Source: Candidatus Parcubacteria bacterium (GTDB lineage Bacteria > Patescibacteriota > Patescibacteriia > Patescibacteriales > UBA12075). Taken from it: a DNA stretch of 32,602 nt. Below are positions 14,900 to 32,075 of this stretch, piece after piece (position 1 is the first letter of the stretch; the number at the start of each line of letters is the position of its first letter). Under the pieces are notes generated by a model that did not search any database, was not told where the DNA came from, and saw only the letters and a list, made by a program, of their open reading frames with translations. The position numbers and the translations under genes are program-made. Location: NCBI GenBank assembly GCA_023142215.1, contig JAGLJW010000016.1, positions 1-32,602 of the forward strand. The letters are read 5' to 3'.

Positions 14900-15037
14900 C
14901 TATTTTGATAATCTTTTTCTTCCCTTTAATCTTCGTCTTTTTAAAACATTTCTTCCGTTTTTTGTTAACATTCTATGTCTAAACCCATGTTTTTTCTTTG
15001 CTTTTCTAACATTAGGCTGAAAGGTTCTTTTTGGCAT
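14900..15037 (-). CDS. rpmH: 50S ribosomal protein L34
   Basis: Not in the ORF track (below its size cutoff). Translation of the minus strand: [45 protein letters not shown]. Confidence 0.97.
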
Positions 15038-15548: not shown

Positions 15549-16934
15549 ATGAATAATGATCAAATTTGGCAAGCAGTTCTTGGTGAAATCGAACTAAATC
15601 TTTCAAAGGCTAATTTCACGACCTGGTTTAAGAATACTTTTATTTCATCCCTAGATAACGGAAGAGTTATAATCAGTGTCCCTAACATGTTTACCGAAAC
15701 ATGGTTAAAGAAAAAATATCATGATAAAATTAAAGATGGTATCGAAAGTATCACAAGTGAAAAAATAAAAGATATTGCATATAAAATTGAACAAAGGAAA
15801 AATAACCCAGTAAATGAATTATTTAAAAAACAAAACATTGCAACTGATAATATCACAGAACAATGTAATAGTAATTTAAATAATATACCACAAGTAAACC
15901 ATGGAATGACAAATAAATTTGGATTAAATAAGAAATATGTTTTTGATAATTATATCGTTGGAAAGGGAAATGAGTTAGCACACGCTGCTTGTAAGGCTGT
16001 AGCTGCTAATCCAGGAACAGCTTATAATCCTTTGTTCATTTATGGCGGAGTTGGTTTAGGAAAAACACATTTAATGCAAGCTATTGGTAACGAAACAGTT
16101 AAAAATAATTTAAGAGTTTTGTATGTTACTTGTGAAAAATTTACCAATGATTATGTTAATGCAGTAAAAACAGGTAAAGCAAAAAGTTTTAAAGATTTAT
16201 ATAGAAATGTTGATGTTTTATTAATTGATGATGTTCAATTTATAGCAGGAAAAGAAAGAACACAGGAAGAATTTTTTCATACATTCAACGAATTACATCA
16301 AAGTAATAAACAAATAGTATTAACATCTGATCGTCCTCCGAAATCAATTTTATCCCTTGAAAAAAGATTATTATCAAGATTTGAGTGGGGAATGATTGCA
16401 GATGTTTCAAAACCTGACATAGAAACAATGGTAGCAATTTTAGAAACTAAATGTAAAGAAAAAAATTATACATTAGATAATAAAATTTTATATTACATAG
16501 CTAATAATGTGCAAAACAATATCAGAGAATTAGAAGGTGCTTTAAATAGATTAATTGTTTTTCATGAATTTAATAACACAAAACCAACAATAGATTCCAC
16601 AAAAAATGTTTTAAACACATTACTTTCAGCACTTCAATCAAAATCAATAACAGGTAAAAATATTATTGAAGCAACAGCAGCTTTTTTTGATGTTAAAATC
16701 CCAGATATTATTGGAAAATCAAGAAAAAAGGAATTAGTATATCCACGTCAAATTACTATGTATTTAATGCGAAAAGAGTTAGGAACTTCGTTTCCAACAA
16801 TCGGACAAGATTTAGGAGGAAGAGATCACACAACAGCAATGCATGCTTGTAATAAAATCAAAAAAGAAATTAAAGAAAACGAAAAAGTGAAACAAGATAT
16901 AGAATCAGTTAAGCAACAAATTTATACATTTTAA
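15549..16934 (+). CDS. dnaA: chromosomal replication initiator DnaA
   Basis: NPLFIYGGVGLGKTHLMQAIGN (Walker A), DVLLIDDVQFIAGKERTQEEFFHTFNEL, C-terminal GGRDHTTAMHAC. Confidence 0.98.
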   Translation: MNNDQIWQAVLGEIELNLSKANFTTWFKNTFISSLDNGRVIISVPNMFTETWLKKKYHDKIKDGIESITSEKIKDIAYKIEQRKNNPVNELFKKQNIATDNITEQCNSNLNNIPQVNHGMTNKFGLNKKYVFDNYIVGKGNELAHAACKAVAANPGTAYNPLFIYGGVGLGKTHLMQAIGNETVKNNLRVLYVTCEKFTNDYVNAVKTGKAKSFKDLYRNVDVLLIDDVQFIAGKERTQEEFFHTFNELHQSNKQIVLTSDRPPKSILSLEKRLLSRFEWGMIADVSKPDIETMVAILETKCKEKNYTLDNKILYYIANNVQNNIRELEGALNRLIVFHEFNNTKPTIDSTKNVLNTLLSALQSKSITGKNIIEATAAFFDVKIPDIIGKSRKKELVYPRQITMYLMRKELGTSFPTIGQDLGGRDHTTAMHACNKIKKEIKENEKVKQDIESVKQQIYTF

Positions 16935-16959: not shown

Positions 16960-18093
16960 ATGAAAATTTCTACTTTACAAGAAAATTTAAAAACAGGTGT
17001 TTATATTGTTAGTCATATAGCTGGCAAAAATGTTAATTTACCAATATTGAGCAATGTTTTAATTAAGGCAAGTAAAGATGGAATTAATTTAATTACAACT
17101 GATTTAGAAATGGGCATAATAAGCAAAATCAGAGGTAAAGTTGAAACAGAAGGTAAGTACACAGTTAATGCAAAAGTTTTATCTGATTATGTTTCACTTC
17201 TTCCAAATCAAAAAATTAATTTAGAAAAAAAAGATAATATTTTAACAGTTTGTAGTGAAAATTATAAAACTTCTATTAAAGGACAAGAAGCAGAAGATTA
17301 TCCATTGATACCAAAAATTGATAAAAATATTTATTTTAAATTAAATATTGAAGAATTTAAAAAAGCATTATCCCAAGTTATTTTTTCAGTTTCTATTTCA
17401 GATACAAGAATTGAGTTAACAGGTGTGTTGTTTTCTTTTAGTAAAAATGGATTAACATTGGCTTCAACAGATAGTTTCAGATTATCAGAAAAAAAAGTAA
17501 AAGTTACAACAAATATTGAAACTGAAGATGAGATAAAAGTAGTTATTCCATCTAAAACACTTCAAGAAGTGATTAGAATTTTATCTACAATTAGAGAAGG
17601 GGAGATAAATAGAGATGAAAACGAAATAGTTTTTTATATTTCCGAAAATCAAGTTTTATTTACAGTTAAAGATACTGAATTAATTTCTAAATTAATTGAC
17701 GGACAATATCCTGATTATACGCAAATAATACCGCTAGAAAATAAAACAGTAGCTATAATAAACAAAAAAGAATTTGTTAGAGCAATAAAAGCATCTTCAA
17801 TTTTTTCCAAGTCAGGAGTAAATGATGTAAATTTAGATTTTCCTTTAGGAAAAAATAAAATAATAATTTCTTCAACCTCGTCATTGACAGGTGAAAATAT
17901 TACCGAGTTAGACGCAAAGGTTGATGGTGATGATAACGGAGTAGTTGTAAATTACAAATATTTGCTTGATGGTTTGAATAATATTGAAGGAGATAGTGTT
18001 CGTATGGAAATAGTTAATAACAACACTCCATGTATCTTAAAATCAGAAAAAGATGATAATTATTTGTATTTAATAATGCCGATAAAACAGTAA
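16960..18093 (+). CDS. dnaN: DNA polymerase III beta subunit (sliding clamp)
   Basis: Follows dnaA; TGVLFSFSKNGLTLASTDSFRLSEKKV; C-terminal YLYLIMPIK. Confidence 0.97.
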   Translation: MKISTLQENLKTGVYIVSHIAGKNVNLPILSNVLIKASKDGINLITTDLEMGIISKIRGKVETEGKYTVNAKVLSDYVSLLPNQKINLEKKDNILTVCSENYKTSIKGQEAEDYPLIPKIDKNIYFKLNIEEFKKALSQVIFSVSISDTRIELTGVLFSFSKNGLTLASTDSFRLSEKKVKVTTNIETEDEIKVVIPSKTLQEVIRILSTIREGEINRDENEIVFYISENQVLFTVKDTELISKLIDGQYPDYTQIIPLENKTVAIINKKEFVRAIKASSIFSKSGVNDVNLDFPLGKNKIIISSTSSLTGENITELDAKVDGDDNGVVVNYKYLLDGLNNIEGDSVRMEIVNNNTPCILKSEKDDNYLYLIMPIKQ

Positions 18094-23299: not shown

Positions 23300-23326
23300 A
23301 AAGGTTTTACGTTATGTAAAACCTTT
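23300..23326 (-). terminator. terminator of ncRNA copy 1
   Basis: Minus strand AAAGGTTTTAC-ATAAC-GTAAAACCTTTTTTG. Confidence 0.75.
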
Positions 23327-23357
23327 CTGTTATTATAAAACTTTTTGGAAAAGAAAA

Positions 23358-23513
23358 AAGGATTGAGTGTTTGTGTTGGTTGAAGTTTTGTTTGGGTTTG
23401 TGTATAGAGTTTTTTGTTGGTGAGTATGGTTTTAATTCTTTATTAAGAAGCAAAACTATACTCATCAGCTCTAAACTCTATTCCCGTAAAACTTTAATCA
23501 ACTCTCAATCCTT
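23358..23513 (-). ncRNA. candidate structured ncRNA, copy 1
   Basis: Rod-like self-complementary 156-nt body with paired ends AAGGATTGAG/CTCAATCCTT, promoter TTGACA-16-TATTAT upstream, terminator downstream; near-identical paralog at 24593-24749. Confidence 0.7.
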
Positions 23514-23519
23514 ATTAAT

Positions 23520-23547
23520 ATAATAGCATATAGAAATAATATGTCAA
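23520..23547 (-). promoter_or_regulatory. promoter of ncRNA copy 1 (TTGACA-16-TGCTATTAT extended -10)
   Basis: + strand ATAATA 23520-23525 (plus GCA) and TGTCAA 23542-23547; predicted TSS coincides with start of the paired 5' arm. Confidence 0.75.
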
Positions 23548-23640
23548 ATGACTAATGTTAGTTTAAACTCTATTAAATAGTTGAAAAATATTATAAAATA
23601 AAAAAGTTATCCACAGATAGAATTAATATAAAACATAAAA

Positions 23641-23663
23641 AACTATTAAAAAATAGTTCTTTT
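23641..23663 (-). terminator. terminator downstream of 23806..24441
   Basis: AACTATT-AAAA-AATAGTT with flanking A/T runs. Confidence 0.5.
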
Positions 23664-23805
23664 TGTTAAAGTAATTCTACTTACACTCAATATTTCAGTG
23701 GACTGTGCTTGTTTGAAGCTGAGCTTCAACGAGGTGGAGATGAAAACTGATAGTTGTCATTCTAGCTTTTTTAAGAAGAACAGGGGATACTATTTTGTTC
23801 CAAGA

Positions 23806-24539: not shown

Positions 24540-24563
24540 AAAAAGGCTTATATAAGCCTTTTT
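24540..24563 (-). terminator. terminator of ncRNA copy 2
   Basis: Perfect palindrome AAAAAGGCTTATATAAGCCTTTTT, T-run on minus strand. Confidence 0.75.
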
Positions 24564-24592
24564 ATTAAAATAAAATTTTTTAAAAAAGAAAA

Positions 24593-24749
24593 AAGGATTG
24601 AGTGTTTGTGTTGGTTGAAGTTTTGTTTGGGTTTGTGTATAGAGTTTTTTGTTGGTGAGTATGGTTTTAATTCTTTAAGCAAGAAGCAAAACTATACTCA
24701 TCAGCTCTAAACTCTATTCCCGTAAAACTTTAATCAACTCTCAATCCTT
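24593..24749 (-). ncRNA. candidate structured ncRNA, copy 2
   Basis: Body identical to copy 1 except the apical loop; same promoter; different terminator sequence. Confidence 0.7.
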
Positions 24750-24755
24750 ATTAAT

Positions 24756-24783
24756 ATAATAGCATATAGAAATAATATGTCAA
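24756..24783 (-). promoter_or_regulatory. promoter of ncRNA copy 2 (TTGACA-16-TGCTATTAT)
   Basis: + strand ATAATA 24756-24761 and TGTCAA 24778-24783. Confidence 0.75.
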
Positions 24784-25073
24784 ATGACCAATGTTAGTTA
24801 AAATTCTATTGAATAATTGAATAATATTATAAAATAAAAAAGTTATCAACAAATAGAATTAAGATGAAAGACAAAACAGGAAGAAGTATTAATTAATTTT
24901 CTTTCTGAATTACGATAAGGATGATATGTTTTGTATTATTTTTCGTGTATTTTATTATACTAATTTCAGCAGGTATTGACTTATCCCCCATAATCCCCTA
25001 TAATACCTTATATAACTAATAAGAGTTATTCGTTTGAATCCATTGCTACGAATGCGGAATATGCGAATAAATA

Positions 25074-26153
25074 ATGAATATGATTAAAGAAAATAAATTA
25101 ATAGCGAGATTAAATTGGAAAAAATTTGAAGATACACAAAAAATACAGCGATTGCTTACAGAGATTGATGAGCTTAAAGGCAGATGGATTGCGGGGGTGA
25201 AATTATCACCGCAGATTTTAAATAAATTAAAAAAATCTGTAGTTATCACTTCCGCTGGAGCTAGTACTCGTATTGAGGGTGCTGAATTATCTGATGAGGA
25301 GATAGAAAAATTGTTTAAAGGTTTGAAAATTAAAAAATTTACCACCAGAGACGAACAGGAGGTTGCTGGTTATAAAGAATTGTTGGAAAATATTTTTAAT
25401 TCTTGGGAGAAAATAAAATTTAACGAAAATTCTATTAAACATTTTCATCAAGAATTATTAAAGTATTCCGAAAAAGATAAAAAACATTTGGGTAATTATA
25501 AATTTGGGAGCAATAGAGTTGAGGCGATTGATGCTAGTGGTAAAGTAATTGGTATTGTTTTTGAACCAACTCCTCCGCATCTAACTCCTAAAGAAATGTC
25601 TGAATTAATTGAATGGACTCAAAATGCCTTTAAAGAGAATTTAATTCATCCATTGCTTATCATTGGAAATTTTGTGTTAGAGTTTTTGGCAATTCATCCT
25701 TTTCAAGATGGTAATGGTCGATCTTCACGTGTGTTAACAAATTTCTTAATGCTTCAGTCGGGATATGAATATATGCCGTATGTTTCGCATGAGAAATTTA
25801 TAGAAGACAATAAAGTAGATTATTATTTAGCACTTAAAAAAAGTCAGGGAGATTGGAAAAAACGTAAGAGCGATATTGTACATTGGATGATTTTCTTTTT
25901 AACAATTTTACTTGAACAGGCAAAGATGGCGATTAAAATTAATGAGAGTGAAAGAATAGAACCTTTCCTGTCAGAAAAGCAATTAAAAGTATGGCAGTAT
26001 TTTGGGGAGCATGAATATGTTACTTCAAAAGATATTCGGGAGAACTTAGGAATCAAAGAAGCTACAGCGTTGCAGATTTTGAATAAGCTTTTGGAAATGA
26101 AAAAGATTGAGAGGCTTGGAATGGGAAGAGGTGTTCGTTATAGGAAAATATAA
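25074..26153 (+). CDS. Fic domain protein with N-terminal inhibitory helix and C-terminal winged helix
   Basis: HPFQDGNGRSSR matches HPFx(D/E)GNGRxxR; upstream STRIEG matches inhibitory motif (S/T)xxxE(G/N); C-terminal wHTH-like VTSKDIRENLGIKEATALQILNKLLEMKKIER. Confidence 0.94.
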   Translation: MNMIKENKLIARLNWKKFEDTQKIQRLLTEIDELKGRWIAGVKLSPQILNKLKKSVVITSAGASTRIEGAELSDEEIEKLFKGLKIKKFTTRDEQEVAGYKELLENIFNSWEKIKFNENSIKHFHQELLKYSEKDKKHLGNYKFGSNRVEAIDASGKVIGIVFEPTPPHLTPKEMSELIEWTQNAFKENLIHPLLIIGNFVLEFLAIHPFQDGNGRSSRVLTNFLMLQSGYEYMPYVSHEKFIEDNKVDYYLALKKSQGDWKKRKSDIVHWMIFFLTILLEQAKMAIKINESERIEPFLSEKQLKVWQYFGEHEYVTSKDIRENLGIKEATALQILNKLLEMKKIERLGMGRGVRYRKI

Positions 26154-26175: not shown

Positions 26176-29100
26176 ATGTCTATTAGAAAGAAACAAGTTA
26201 ATTTAACTACAAAATTAAAAGTTTACATTAACTGTGGTGGTAAGTGTGGTTTTCCAAACTGCAAAGAACATTTGGTTGAGGAAGATAGCATAGTAGGAGA
26301 TATAGCTCATATAAAAGCAAGAAGTGATGGAGGCCCAAGAGGTAATATTGATTTATCGGAAGAAAAAAGAAATTCACCAGATAATTTGATAGCCTTGTGC
26401 AAGAAGCATCACAAGATAATAGATGACCATCCAGATAAATATAGTGTCGAAGATATGGAAAAATGGAAGAATGATATAGAGGAATGGGCCATAAAATCAC
26501 CTGAAAAAACTGAGTTTGGTAAAAAACTAATATTAATAATGTTGTCTGAGTTGGAAAAAGAATTAGATAGAGGTAATGGAAAGTATGTACTTAAAACCAT
26601 TCAATCAATTAAGATTATCTCAGAAACTCTGGAGGATGATAGCGTTAATAGTGAGCTTGAAATATTAAAGGCAAGAGTCAAACAAAGTTTAGAAGACGTG
26701 AGTGAGGCCAAGAAACTATTAAAAAGCATTTCCAAACTTTATCCCAAAAATATTAAATCTATTCTTTATTTAGCTGAAATTTTTTTAAATGAGGGCGACT
26801 ACGATAAAAATGAAGAGTTATTAAAACAAGCTAAGAAGATAGATAAAAATCATTGGCTTTTTGTTATTGAACAATTGATTAGGAAGCTTCGTTTAAACCA
26901 AAGTATTGATACAACAAAAATTTATGAAAATGATTTTCCCAAAAATGAAAAACAAAAATCTATCTACTATCGTATTTATTCTCATTTTTATCAAAAAGAT
27001 AAAAATTATACAAAAGCTGATGAGTTTATAGAAAAATCAATTAAACTATATCCATGCTCATTTTCTAGCTTTAATACTAAGTTAGCTTTCAGTTTAGAGA
27101 GATTAGTTGAAAAAGGTTTTCCTCTTAAACATATAGAAAAGGCGGAGGAGATATTAAATCAAATTAATGAAATAGAAATAGAAAATAGTAATTGGGATGA
27201 TTTATATATTAGCAGTAAAACTATTTTAGAGTTTAGAAAGTTTTATATTTATGTAGTTCAGCAAAACTATAAAAAGATTATTTATGCTGGCAAAAAACTT
27301 GTTGACCTAATAATGCAATGCTCATTTGATTTAGATGTAGATAATTTTTTAAATTTACTTTTAACGCATTATCGTCCAGAAAAAGAAGATTTTGAGAAAA
27401 TTATTAAATACTTATCAGATAAAAACATCACTTATGATCTTGCAAAATCTTTGGCTTTTCAATTTTGTGAAAGGGGTAAATTATTTGCTGATGGCAAAAA
27501 GTTTTTATCTGCAAAGAATGAAAAAATTAAAGATTTAATTTTACACATAGAAGCAGGGAAGAAAAATGAAGTAATTGATTTTTTGAAAAAAGATTTACAG
27601 TTAATGTTAACGTTTGCAAATTGTTTAAAAGATAATCCTAGTTTGAGGAAAGATATAATTGACAATATACCAGACGATGACAACATCCAAAAAGAAAAAA
27701 TTTATCTATTATATTACTCTGATATAGAAGAATATAATAACGCCTTTAAAATCGTGCAAAACATAGAGTTTGAAAATGCAAATTATCTTGATTGCGAAAT
27801 ATCTTTAAAAGTGGTTCGAGAAAAACAAGCTTGGGAAATGGAGGTAAAAATTTTAGATAGATTATTCAAGTTAGAAAAAAATGAAAGAAAACAATTGACA
27901 TATAAGTTAGACCAATTTACTGCTTGTATGAAGATGGAAGATTATTTAGAGGTAATAAACATAGGCAAATATTTGTTAAGCAATCCCCAAACTTTTGAGT
28001 TAATAGATGAAAAGAATCAAGAACTATTGTTAGGACAAACAATAACCGCTTATTTACAAAGAAGCGAAGAAAAAGATGCCCTGAGGTTGTTTCAGAAATA
28101 TCCTAACATCATTAAAAGTTTTGAATTTGTTATTTCTGTAGAAGCTGAAGTTTATTTAAAAAATGAAGATTATAAAAAAGCATTATTGTCATTGTGTAAT
28201 GGAATTAAAAAAATCAGGAAGCCTACTAAAGAACAATACGGATATTTATTTTTTCAATTCGTCCAATTAAGCAATTCTGGTGTTGCTAAAATTGAAACAC
28301 TTGAAAAAATTACAAACAATTTTTTTGTAAAATTTAAAAACCAAGAGCAGTGGTATTATGTTGGTGATGAAGATGAGTTGGATGCTACTAAAATTAACTC
28401 CGCAAATAATAAATATAATTTGCTTATTGGTAAAAAGGTAAATGATAAAATAGAGTTTCCGGAGGATAAATATCAAACCAATAAAGAAGAAAGAAAGATT
28501 GAAAATATTTTAAATTTAGAGGCTTATATAAACTGGAAAGCTCACGATAGTTTTTTTAGTTTGTCAAAGCAAGGTAGGTGGGATATGGGAGTAGCAATTG
28601 AAGTGCCAAATGATGAAAATGGTGGTATAGATGTTAATAATGTAATAAATTTTATTAAAGACCAGCAAGAAAGAGGTAAAGAATTTTTTGGAGGCTATTG
28701 TTCGAATAATTACCCTTTTGCATTCTTGGCTTTAAGTGAGGGAGGGGTGACTAATGCAATTGGTAAAATCACAAAAGAAAATAAAGGGTTTATACGATTT
28801 TCTGATGGTTCAGTTCAGGATATAAATAAACAAGGGCAAGTAGCTGAAAAAATAATAGAGAATTCGGAAGTGTTTTTAGACGGCACAACAGCTCTCTTTT
28901 TAGCTGAAACAGGTTTATTGAAAAAAATAAAACCCTTCATTCCAAATTTAAAAGTGCCTCAATCGGTTATCACCTTTTTATTTAAAACTTTGGAGAAATT
29001 TAATATTACACCTGGACAGATTGGTCATATGGGATGTGTTGATGACAAATTAGTATCTGATAAGATTGATAAAGCAAAAAACGAAAGGATAAAAAACAAC

Positions 29101-29820
29101 TTTAAACAAAGTATAGAGATTTTAGAAAAAGACAAAAACAATATTTTCTCCATTTCTCAAGCAAATAAATCTGAACATTTTTCAGAAAGCAATATTGCTC
29201 CTGAATTAACAGACGCTTGTATTTTAGCACAAAAAAATAATGCCATTATAATAACCGAAGATTTCTTATATTTGCAAGCCAATAATTTGCAAACTAAAAA
29301 GGGCATACCAGAATATTGCTCACTATTTTCTATAGCCAAAAAGTTGCTTGAGAAGAATAAAATATCTTTTGATGACTACTTAAATATTTATTCCTATCTA
29401 TCTTCTTATAGATGCAGATTTTTAGATTTAAACGCAGACCTAATGATTAAATCTGTTTTTAGAGAAGTTGATAATATCAAATTTGAACCTCAAAAACTAC
29501 ACTATTTAAATCTTAATTTAACATTAACGGAAGAGTATGGGGTTAAACCAGAAAATGCCATAACTGTATTGAGTGAATTTATTTCAAGAATTATAGTGGC
29601 AAATATTGTCACCTTAGAAAATGTAAAAGAAATTTATGAGATTGTTTTGATTTCATCTTTATTTAAAGGGGAAAAGGATAATTGTTCAGCTTTATTAGAA
29701 AAATGTGAGAAGACGATAGTTGGATATTTTGAAAAGTATCATCTTTATTCTATTCCTGATTATACAAAAGAAAAAATTGCAGAATTGGAAAAACAACTAA
29801 ACGTACACACTATTTCGTAA
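26176..29820 (+). CDS. large HNH - TPR-like - PIN-like protein (putative defence nuclease)
   Basis: N-term CGFPNC...GDIAHIKARSDGGPRGN...LIALCKKHHKIID (HNH); central helical TPR-like repeats; C-term VFLDGTTALFLAETGLL...ELTDACILAQKNNAIIITEDFLYL (PIN-like acidic residues). Confidence 0.75.
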   Translation: MSIRKKQVNLTTKLKVYINCGGKCGFPNCKEHLVEEDSIVGDIAHIKARSDGGPRGNIDLSEEKRNSPDNLIALCKKHHKIIDDHPDKYSVEDMEKWKNDIEEWAIKSPEKTEFGKKLILIMLSELEKELDRGNGKYVLKTIQSIKIISETLEDDSVNSELEILKARVKQSLEDVSEAKKLLKSISKLYPKNIKSILYLAEIFLNEGDYDKNEELLKQAKKIDKNHWLFVIEQLIRKLRLNQSIDTTKIYENDFPKNEKQKSIYYRIYSHFYQKDKNYTKADEFIEKSIKLYPCSFSSFNTKLAFSLERLVEKGFPLKHIEKAEEILNQINEIEIENSNWDDLYISSKTILEFRKFYIYVVQQNYKKIIYAGKKLVDLIMQCSFDLDVDNFLNLLLTHYRPEKEDFEKIIKYLSDKNITYDLAKSLAFQFCERGKLFADGKKFLSAKNEKIKDLILHIEAGKKNEVIDFLKKDLQLMLTFANCLKDNPSLRKDIIDNIPDDDNIQKEKIYLLYYSDIEEYNNAFKIVQNIEFENANYLDCEISLKVVREKQAWEMEVKILDRLFKLEKNERKQLTYKLDQFTACMKMEDYLEVINIGKYLLSNPQTFELIDEKNQELLLGQTITAYLQRSEEKDALRLFQKYPNIIKSFEFVISVEAEVYLKNEDYKKALLSLCNGIKKIRKPTKEQYGYLFFQFVQLSNSGVAKIETLEKITNNFFVKFKNQEQWYYVGDEDELDATKINSANNKYNLLIGKKVNDKIEFPEDKYQTNKEERKIENILNLEAYINWKAHDSFFSLSKQGRWDMGVAIEVPNDENGGIDVNNVINFIKDQQERGKEFFGGYCSNNYPFAFLALSEGGVTNAIGKITKENKGFIRFSDGSVQDINKQGQVAEKIIENSEVFLDGTTALFLAETGLLKKIKPFIPNLKVPQSVITFLFKTLEKFNITPGQIGHMGCVDDKLVSDKIDKAKNERIKNNFKQSIEILEKDKNNIFSISQANKSEHFSESNIAPELTDACILAQKNNAIIITEDFLYLQANNLQTKKGIPEYCSLFSIAKKLLEKNKISFDDYLNIYSYLSSYRCRFLDLNADLMIKSVFREVDNIKFEPQKLHYLNLNLTLTEEYGVKPENAITVLSEFISRIIVANIVTLENVKEIYEIVLISSLFKGEKDNCSALLEKCEKTIVGYFEKYHLYSIPDYTKEKIAELEKQLNVHTIS

Positions 29821-30119: not shown

Positions 30120-30317
30120 TTAGTTTAGTTTATATCTTCCTCGAGAAACGAAACTTAAATAGCCTTTATCTTGAAGTAATTGTAATTGTTGTCTAATTTT
30201 ATCTTTAACGTGATTATTGTCAGGATGTTTTTTAACCCAATCTTCAGTTAAAACATGAATCTTTTGGGAGTTGCTTTTGTATTTATCTGCTATTTGGTTA
30301 TTTAAGTTTGTTTGCAT
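30120..30317 (-). CDS. winged-helix protein resembling the C-terminal domain of DpnI/Dam-replacing family
   Basis: YKSNSQKIHVLTEDWVKKH...IRQQLQLLQDKGYLSFVSRGRYKL. Confidence 0.7.
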   Translation of the reverse strand: MQTNLNNQIADKYKSNSQKIHVLTEDWVKKHPDNNHVKDKIRQQLQLLQDKGYLSFVSRGRYKLN

Positions 30318-30326
30318 AACTTGTTT

Positions 30327-30857
30327 TTATTTACCTTCCATTATCTGAAGAATATCATCTAATATTTTAATCGTTTTTCTTTTTTCTTCAAGCAACTCTT
30401 TCTTAAAAAGATTATTATATTCATAAGCTTCTTTTCTTTGCCTTTTATTTATATATTCAGACTCAAACATTTTTTTACATTCTGGAGAATCGTTGCTTAT
30501 TTTACTTGAGCCTAGAATAGATAAAAGTAAATGTTCAAGACAGGGAGTGTTTTCTATCAGCTCAATTTTCTTACTTCCAGCGATTTTTCTTGCTTCTTCA
30601 ATTTCGCCTTTTGGTTTGTCATTATCCAAAACAACAACTCTTCTATCAAATTCTCCTAACACTCTACTGGCATCAATTACAATATTAGCTGAATTTCCAC
30701 CCCTGCCTTTTCTAACAGTAATAGCTACGTTAGTATCACAACAGTATAACTTTTTTAAATGCTTTAAAAACATTTGCTCATTCATACCTTCGCCAAAAAT
30801 CAACAAAGTTTTATTTGCTTGGCGTCTTTTTCTTTTATATGGATTTGTTCTCGACAT
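30327..30857 (-). CDS. RloB-like (AbiLii-like) protein, TOPRIM-like residues
   Basis: NPYKRKRRQANKTLLIFGEGMNEQMFLKHLKKL...VVVLDNDKPKGEIEEARKIA...NTPCLEHLLLSIL. Confidence 0.8.
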   Translation of the reverse strand: MSRTNPYKRKRRQANKTLLIFGEGMNEQMFLKHLKKLYCCDTNVAITVRKGRGGNSANIVIDASRVLGEFDRRVVVLDNDKPKGEIEEARKIAGSKKIELIENTPCLEHLLLSILGSSKISNDSPECKKMFESEYINKRQRKEAYEYNNLFKKELLEEKRKTIKILDDILQIMEGK

Positions 30858-30860
30858 GTA

Positions 30861-32075
30861 TTATAGTTTAGGGACAGCACCGTAGGCACCAGCAATATAT
30901 TTTGAATAATAATTATCATCAGCGCGAACACCAGTAACATCATCAAGTCGCCAAGCTTCACTTTCACCTTTTTCATTTTTTTCAGTCAAAACAATTTGAT
31001 ATTTATCTAGCTTACTTAATATTTGATGACTATGACTACTAAAAAGCAATTGAGCATTTTTAGGATTAGTTTCTGGTTGCATAAATAAATCAAACAAAGC
31101 TAAAACTATTTCTGGATGCAAATTAACATCAAATTCATCTAATATTGCTGCTCCTCCGTTAGCCAAAACCAGCAAAATTGTTTTTAAGAGCACAAAAAGT
31201 TGTTTTGTTCCAGATGACTCATACTTTATTGGTATATATTTTTTTTCACCACCAAAAGTGTGTGCCACTCTAACATTGATACTTAGTCCGTTATCTTTTT
31301 TTTCTTTTTTTATTTCAAAAGAATCTAAACCAAGATCAAACTGTGATAAAAGCTTTTCGGCTTCAGCTTTAATGTGAGCATTCTTTTTCTCGCTAAAAAA
31401 ATCAAATGCTTCAATAAGTTGCTGATTAGCATTTGGAAGTAAATGGTTGCCAACCCAACCAGCTTCAATTACATTAGTTTCTATATTTTGCCAAAAATTA
31501 AATATTTCCAGACTTTTCTTGTGGTTAAATCGTGAAGCAACACTGATTATACTAGCATTAGAACGAAGAAGTTCTTCATATCCTTTTGGCAAATTAAACT
31601 TCTTGTCATCTAATTCGTACTTATTTTTTTCTTCATTCCATTTGCGAGAAAAAACTTTTTTAGTAGTTACTTTTTTAGTAGTTTTATTTTTTACTTTTAT
31701 TTCTTCTGCAATTATTTTCTTTTCATTTAAGATAAAAGTATAAACATAAATATTACCATTAATCTCAAAATCAACAGACAGTTCAGTGGATTTATTTTTA
31801 TTATTGCCAAATAAAAAAGGTTTTATTGGTAAAGGGGCATTAGGAGAGGCATTAAAAGAAGTAACTATTAACCATTTTAAAAATGGTAATATTTTTAATA
31901 GATTTGTTTTTCCAGATGCATTTGGTCCTATTACAGTTTCAATCTTTGAAAGATGAGCATCCGAGGTAGCCTGAAAATATCCATCGTTACTTGGCGCTTT
32001 ATCGTTTACTGTAAAATCTATTATAGTTAAATCTTTAAATGAATAAAAATTTTTACATGAAAATGAATGTATCAT
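30861..32075 (-). CDS. AAA15/RloA-like (AbiLi-like) ATPase
   Basis: FSCKNFYSFKDLTIIDF; Walker A IGPNASGKTNLLK; Walker B AAILDEFDVNLHPE; LLFSSHSHQIL. Confidence 0.92.
   Translation of the reverse strand: MIHSFSCKNFYSFKDLTIIDFTVNDKAPSNDGYFQATSDAHLSKIETVIGPNASGKTNLLKILPFLKWLIVTSFNASPNAPLPIKPFLFGNNKNKSTELSVDFEINGNIYVYTFILNEKKIIAEEIKVKNKTTKKVTTKKVFSRKWNEEKNKYELDDKKFNLPKGYEELLRSNASIISVASRFNHKKSLEIFNFWQNIETNVIEAGWVGNHLLPNANQQLIEAFDFFSEKKNAHIKAEAEKLLSQFDLGLDSFEIKKEKKDNGLSINVRVAHTFGGEKKYIPIKYESSGTKQLFVLLKTILLVLANGGAAILDEFDVNLHPEIVLALFDLFMQPETNPKNAQLLFSSHSHQILSKLDKYQIVLTEKNEKGESEAWRLDDVTGVRADDNYYSKYIAGAYGAVPKL

Follow-up and report, generated by a model that had tools for sequence, protein, structure and literature searches.

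The window, by which we mean the whole 32,602-nt stretch of DNA analyzed, carries on its forward strand a single intact ORF (26176-29820) that starts with ATG, has no internal stops and encodes a protein of 1214 aa (P0001). The ORF is present in one copy in its own genome (1.19 Mb, 92 contigs). Three Pfam families were found above their cut-offs: HNH_2 (aa 40-85), TPR_19 (aa 173-225) and PIN-TPR-GreABC (PF20698, aa 901-1034), and the initial annotation had claimed these same three elements, HNH, TPR and PIN, in one protein. The domain order is HNH - TPR - GreA/B-C - PIN - C-terminal helical region, as follows:

26176..29820 (+): whole ORF, 1214 aa; one intact reading frame, single genomic copy
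26197..26493 (+): HNH nuclease domain, aa 8-106, Cap5/SAVED-HNH-like, putatively zinc-binding, in the variable effector position (Pfam HNH_2; PADLOC SAVED-HNH effectors and PDC-M68A; phmmer to PDB 9om4 and 7rwm)
26512..28275 (+): TPR solenoid, about aa 113-700 (TPR_19; AF2 hairpins; helices for aa 611-700 in another model too, with alignment of this part to TPR structures)
28315..28515 (+): degenerate GreA/B-C (FKBP-like, putatively RNAP-binding) domain, about aa 714-780 (profile-profile score; AF2 strand/helix order; Pfam GreA_GreB in four relatives)
28876..29277 (+): PIN domain, aa 901-1034, with acidic residues D902, D1013 and D1029 (PF20698 above cut-off; conservation in 12 relatives; AF2 blocks with pLDDT 75-92)
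29293..29817 (+): C-terminal helical extension, aa 1040-1214 (alignment shows it conserved in both of the closest relatives)

The GreA/B-C domain, the fourth and diagnostic one, was absent from the earlier description.

Genomic neighborhood

The surroundings of the gene look like a small defense island. Downstream, on the opposite strand, lies an AbiL/PARIS-like pair (30327-32075, -), consisting of an OLD-type AAA ATPase (AbiLi/AriA-like, 404 aa) and an RloB/AbiLii-like protein (176 aa), with a tRNA-Asp gene past it at the contig end. A 65-aa DpnI remnant is encoded at 30120-30317 (-), where the first 31 residues of the DpnI match are joined to the C-terminal HTH and the catalytic middle is missing.

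Upstream, a Fic-wHTH gene (SoFic-like; 25074-26153, +) ends 22 bp before the ORF on the same strand, and reading its sequence revealed an intact HPFQDGNGRSSR motif as well as the STRIEG inhibitory motif. Such an arrangement could represent a two-gene module in which AMPylation controls the nuclease protein; we regard this as quite improbable. Fic-wHTH genes are often solitary, which counts against a module. No Fic gene was recognized on reading the neighborhoods of the relatives described below, for which reason Fic is not counted in the system, and no shared neighbor gene was recognized among the relatives' loci that were read. In addition, genes of the TPR-GreA/B-C-PIN type are reported to be mostly standalone (PMC8195603); the window gene may be so too, but it does have the Fic gene 22 bp upstream.

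Elsewhere in the window, at 23319-23667 and 24554-24876, are two of the five copies (93-96% identical) of a repeat of ~310 nt, found also on G000 contigs C29, C15 and C58. This repeat has fairly sharp ends, a shared right end GTTATC(C/A)ACA and no match in Rfam, and is possibly a small non-autonomous mobile element. The GC skew changes sign near 15000, by dnaA-like (15549-16934) and dnaN-like (16960-18093) genes, and the region is probably that of the replication origin.

Domains of the 1214-aa protein

The central TPR-like helical array that had been proposed is borne out by the TPR_19 match and by an AF2 model of aa 1-640, where confident helical hairpins extend over aa 113-640 with block pLDDT mostly between 80 and 95 (mean pLDDT 78 for the model, its HNH part unmodelled). 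The second AF2 model, of aa 611-1214, was mediocre (mean pLDDT 55.7). A Foldseek search with it gave no match at E<=0.001, the PIN protein 1v8p ranking 45th at E=0.36, and VIA-align aligned mostly its TPR part.

The N-terminal domain was left unfolded by AF2, which had a shallow alignment of three sequences, and the HNH assignment therefore rests on homology to solved structures. A phmmer search of the PDB matched 9om4, an 'HNH endonuclease' (E=6e-18), and also SAVED-domain (Cap5-type) nucleases (7rwm, 8ysq, 7rwk and 8fm1). Among the PADLOC models, the domain is closest to the SAVED-HNH (Cap5) effectors and PDC-M68A. By alignment, both the H45, N70, H79 signature and the putative zinc ligands C24, C29, C75 and H78 are common to 9om4 and the plasmid-borne relative P0002, and largely to the Cap5 structures. 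The HNH part of the proposed CxxC/HNH N-terminus thus stands, and the CxxC part does not, the zinc motif being CxxxxC (C24-C29). The protein shares this N-terminal domain, with its catalytic and zinc residues, with 9om4 and the Cap5/SAVED-HNH effectors of CBASS (7rwm, 8ysq, 8fm1). However, Pfam found no SAVED domain in the 1214-aa protein, the PADLOC SAVED-HNH matches stop at aa 144, and no CD-NTase neighbor was recognized; TPR, GreA/B-C and PIN are present instead.

The PIN domain scored 38.5 bits against PF20698 (cut-off 27.8). The acidic residues pointed out in the initial annotation, D902 (FLDG), D1013 (TDAC) and D1029 (TED), recur in 11, 10 and 12 of the 12 relatives compared, respectively. 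The second canonical acidic position (vP..v..E) is F934 in the window protein and non-acidic in 11 of the 12 relatives, and the retention of three of the four canonical acidic residues is a family-wide feature. Because this second residue is non-acidic, catalysis is likely rather than certain; judged by conservation, the domain is probably active with three aspartates.

The missing residue would fit a restriction-like DNase, in which HNH alone is functional as an effector, some component of the invader is detected by the TPR array, and GreA/B-C and PIN have no catalytic activity and serve for targeting or regulation. This reading also draws on the match of the HNH catalytic and zinc residues to solved Cap5-type nucleases, and on the effector swapping described below, which implies that the killing activity resides in the N-terminus. 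Yet the three PIN aspartates are maintained among proteins with core identities of mostly about 11-15%, a degree of retention that would be puzzling unless they take part in catalysis or bind metal, and we consider the DNase reading doubtful. The same aspartates could argue for the opposite emphasis, namely abortive infection mainly through RNA, where a VapC-like PIN domain cleaves host tRNA or mRNA on TPR sensing and the HNH domain serves as a back-up. In this regard, mutation of the PIN domain abolishes defense in two PIN phage-defense systems from DefensePredictor, DS-3 and DS-5 (PMC13092281), but these may differ in architecture from the TPR-GreA/B-C-PIN proteins. Moreover, a GreA/B-C domain suggests RNA polymerase and not tRNA, so that this alternative appears unlikely.

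Between the TPR and PIN domains, at aa 714-780, lies the GreA/B-C domain, with the sequence FFVKF..WYYVGDEDELDATKI..YNLLIGKKVNDKIEF. Pfam did not detect it in the window protein or in its two relatives P0002 and P0003, the isolated segment included. We therefore compared profiles with hhalign, using a three-sequence core alignment and a GreA-C alignment from 26 genomes of the window's phylum. The best match fell exactly at aa 714-780, with a score of 27.2. The controls scored lower: at most 19.2 in 300 column shuffles (0 of 300 reaching 27.2), 13.3 when the alignment was reversed and 15.2 with the HNH/TPR alignment. The GreA-C topology is strand-strand-strand-helix-strand-strand, and the AF2 model has this same order at aa 714-780. 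In four relatives (L072, L074, L078 and L079), Pfam GreA_GreB was matched below its cut-off in the same place upstream of PIN. In the window protein, this domain is degenerate, too much so for Pfam, and its RNAP-contacting surface is putative. The presence of the domain suggests RNA polymerase as the target.

Relatives and distribution

The full-length HNH-headed relative P0002 is encoded on the conjugative plasmid pLD-TEX-KL of Fluoribacter dumoffii and is 29% identical over the core; by sequence, the same protein is carried by Legionella bozemanae. The closest core relative (P0003/P0004, 40% identity) comes from a Nitrospirae MAG and has an LmuA-type REase N-terminus in place of HNH, with a weak PADLOC match to LmuA. 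In this copy, a short in-frame duplication creates a stop codon, which is either real or an assembly error. A tree of the core pairs the window protein with P0003 and splits them from P0002 with 97% support. Since the tree thus joins an HNH-headed protein with a REase-headed one, apart from the other HNH-headed protein, the HNH and REase heads appear to have been exchanged on the core.

The Nitrospirae gene (L014 12775-16803, -) lies on a 50.6-kb contig (L014/L020) that carries TraH and TraG, a mobile context. The contig is of conjugative type, with Replic_Relax in addition to the two Tra genes, and by eye ParB-, sigma- and sliding-clamp-like ORFs are also found. Within a few kb of the REase-TPR-GreA/B-C-PIN gene, the contig also encodes an RNA polymerase beta' of its own (1342 aa), which shares 46% identity with another rpoC of that genome.

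In the phylum of the Legionella relative, 9 of 398 genomes have the PF20698 PIN domain above cut-off; the ORFs encoding it are 1103-1469 codons long, and their core identity to the window protein is 11-15%. Seven of these nine (L072, L074 and L076-L080) start, by eye, with an Mrr-like REase motif, GxxGQxQxGVDixGR...QCK, which Pfam recognizes weakly in some of them. As in the Nitrospirae protein, the TPR-GreA/B-C-PIN core is that of the window protein and a REase-like domain replaces HNH. Directly 3' of one PF20698 PIN core gene is a DarT-DarG pair (L075 7941-9663), with an integrase-like gene beyond. Two bDLD3-/PNP-headed double-PIN proteins (L081 and L083) resemble the window protein in their large size, related PIN domain and swapped N-terminal effector, but they were not counted, since their PF20698 match is below cut-off; they also have an HTH_upst_double_PIN domain and belong to a neighboring but separate system. 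L003 and L013, which had resembled distant relatives, were left out because the one is a short PIN protein and the other a fragment of unclear nature.

Among 379 genomes of the window's phylum, the full-length protein was found in the window's genome alone, which suggests that it was gained horizontally. Searching viral contigs with the window protein and with the core alignment yielded no relative, and a search of phages gave one weak HNH match and nothing else.

A GreA/B-C domain and an RNase-fold domain within one protein could also be expected of a housekeeping nuclease for transcription quality control. We find this scarcely credible for a gene that is rare, patchy and plasmid-borne, with a variable N-terminus and defense-gene neighbors, and the genome of the window already encodes a separate GreA of its own.

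Membership in a conflict system and possible mode of action

The window protein almost certainly belongs to the TPR-GreA/B-C-PIN conflict system described in eLife in 2021 (PMC8195603). There, TPR, GreA/B-C and PIN form a constant core that evolves fast, and the core is headed by EAD10 or by one of 13 other effectors, among them HNH, REase, TIR, SIR2, PNPase and peptidases. The window protein shares with this system (PF20698) the order of the core, the swappable N-terminal effector and the patchy distribution. The suggestion that the combination is unusual or new is contradicted on two counts, in that a Pfam family is already named for it and the 2021 paper lists HNH-headed TPR + GreA/B-C + PIN proteins. 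This kind of protein is therefore already published, and what is new is a divergent HNH-headed member. It falls in a divergent subgroup, with core identities of 29-40% to the two close relatives and of 11-15% to the nine members from the phylum of the Legionella relative. It further differs in a GreA/B-C domain beyond Pfam detection and in a host genome of 1.19 Mb. In the papers searched, no published experimental test of the system was found.

The prediction made for the system is that hijacked RNA polymerase is targeted, the GreA/B-C domain engaging the beta' coiled coil and PIN cutting the extruded transcript, and that the N-terminal effector triggers cell death should transcript cutting fail (PMC8195603). 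Applied to the window protein, the GreA/B-C domain would dock on the beta' coiled coil at the secondary channel of RNA polymerase, as in that proposal. The TPR solenoid, we infer, would respond to hijacking of the polymerase or to a bound invader protein, and would restrain the nucleases. Once triggered, PIN would cut the transcript and HNH would cut invader or host DNA, such that the infection is stopped or the cell is killed; the sequence in which the two nucleases act is presumed after the same proposal (PMC8195603).

The account we lean toward, at a little short of an even chance, is that of a standalone defense protein which docks on RNA polymerase and whose PIN and HNH domains cut transcripts and DNA, respectively. 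A more specific version is possible but tentative: a transcription-coupled dual nuclease that travels with RNA polymerase via its GreA/B-C-like domain. Once it senses an invader, PIN would cleave the nascent RNA and HNH the template DNA, the HNH and REase heads being interchangeable on a polymerase-docking chassis. The domain order, family membership, conserved catalytic residues, effector swapping and patchy, mobile distribution are read from sequence comparisons, and the defense role is predicted on the grounds that the gene is mobile and rare, swaps its effector and has the neighbors described. Of the dual-nuclease defense effector originally envisaged, the two different nuclease domains with a TPR array between them are thus retained, and the defense role is probable, as a prediction.

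The window protein adds to a predicted defense system a divergent HNH-headed member, from a lineage of tiny genomes in which the system is rare. The paired relatives, having the same core with either an HNH or a REase head, would be well suited to a test of whether the core is the sensor and the head an interchangeable weapon.
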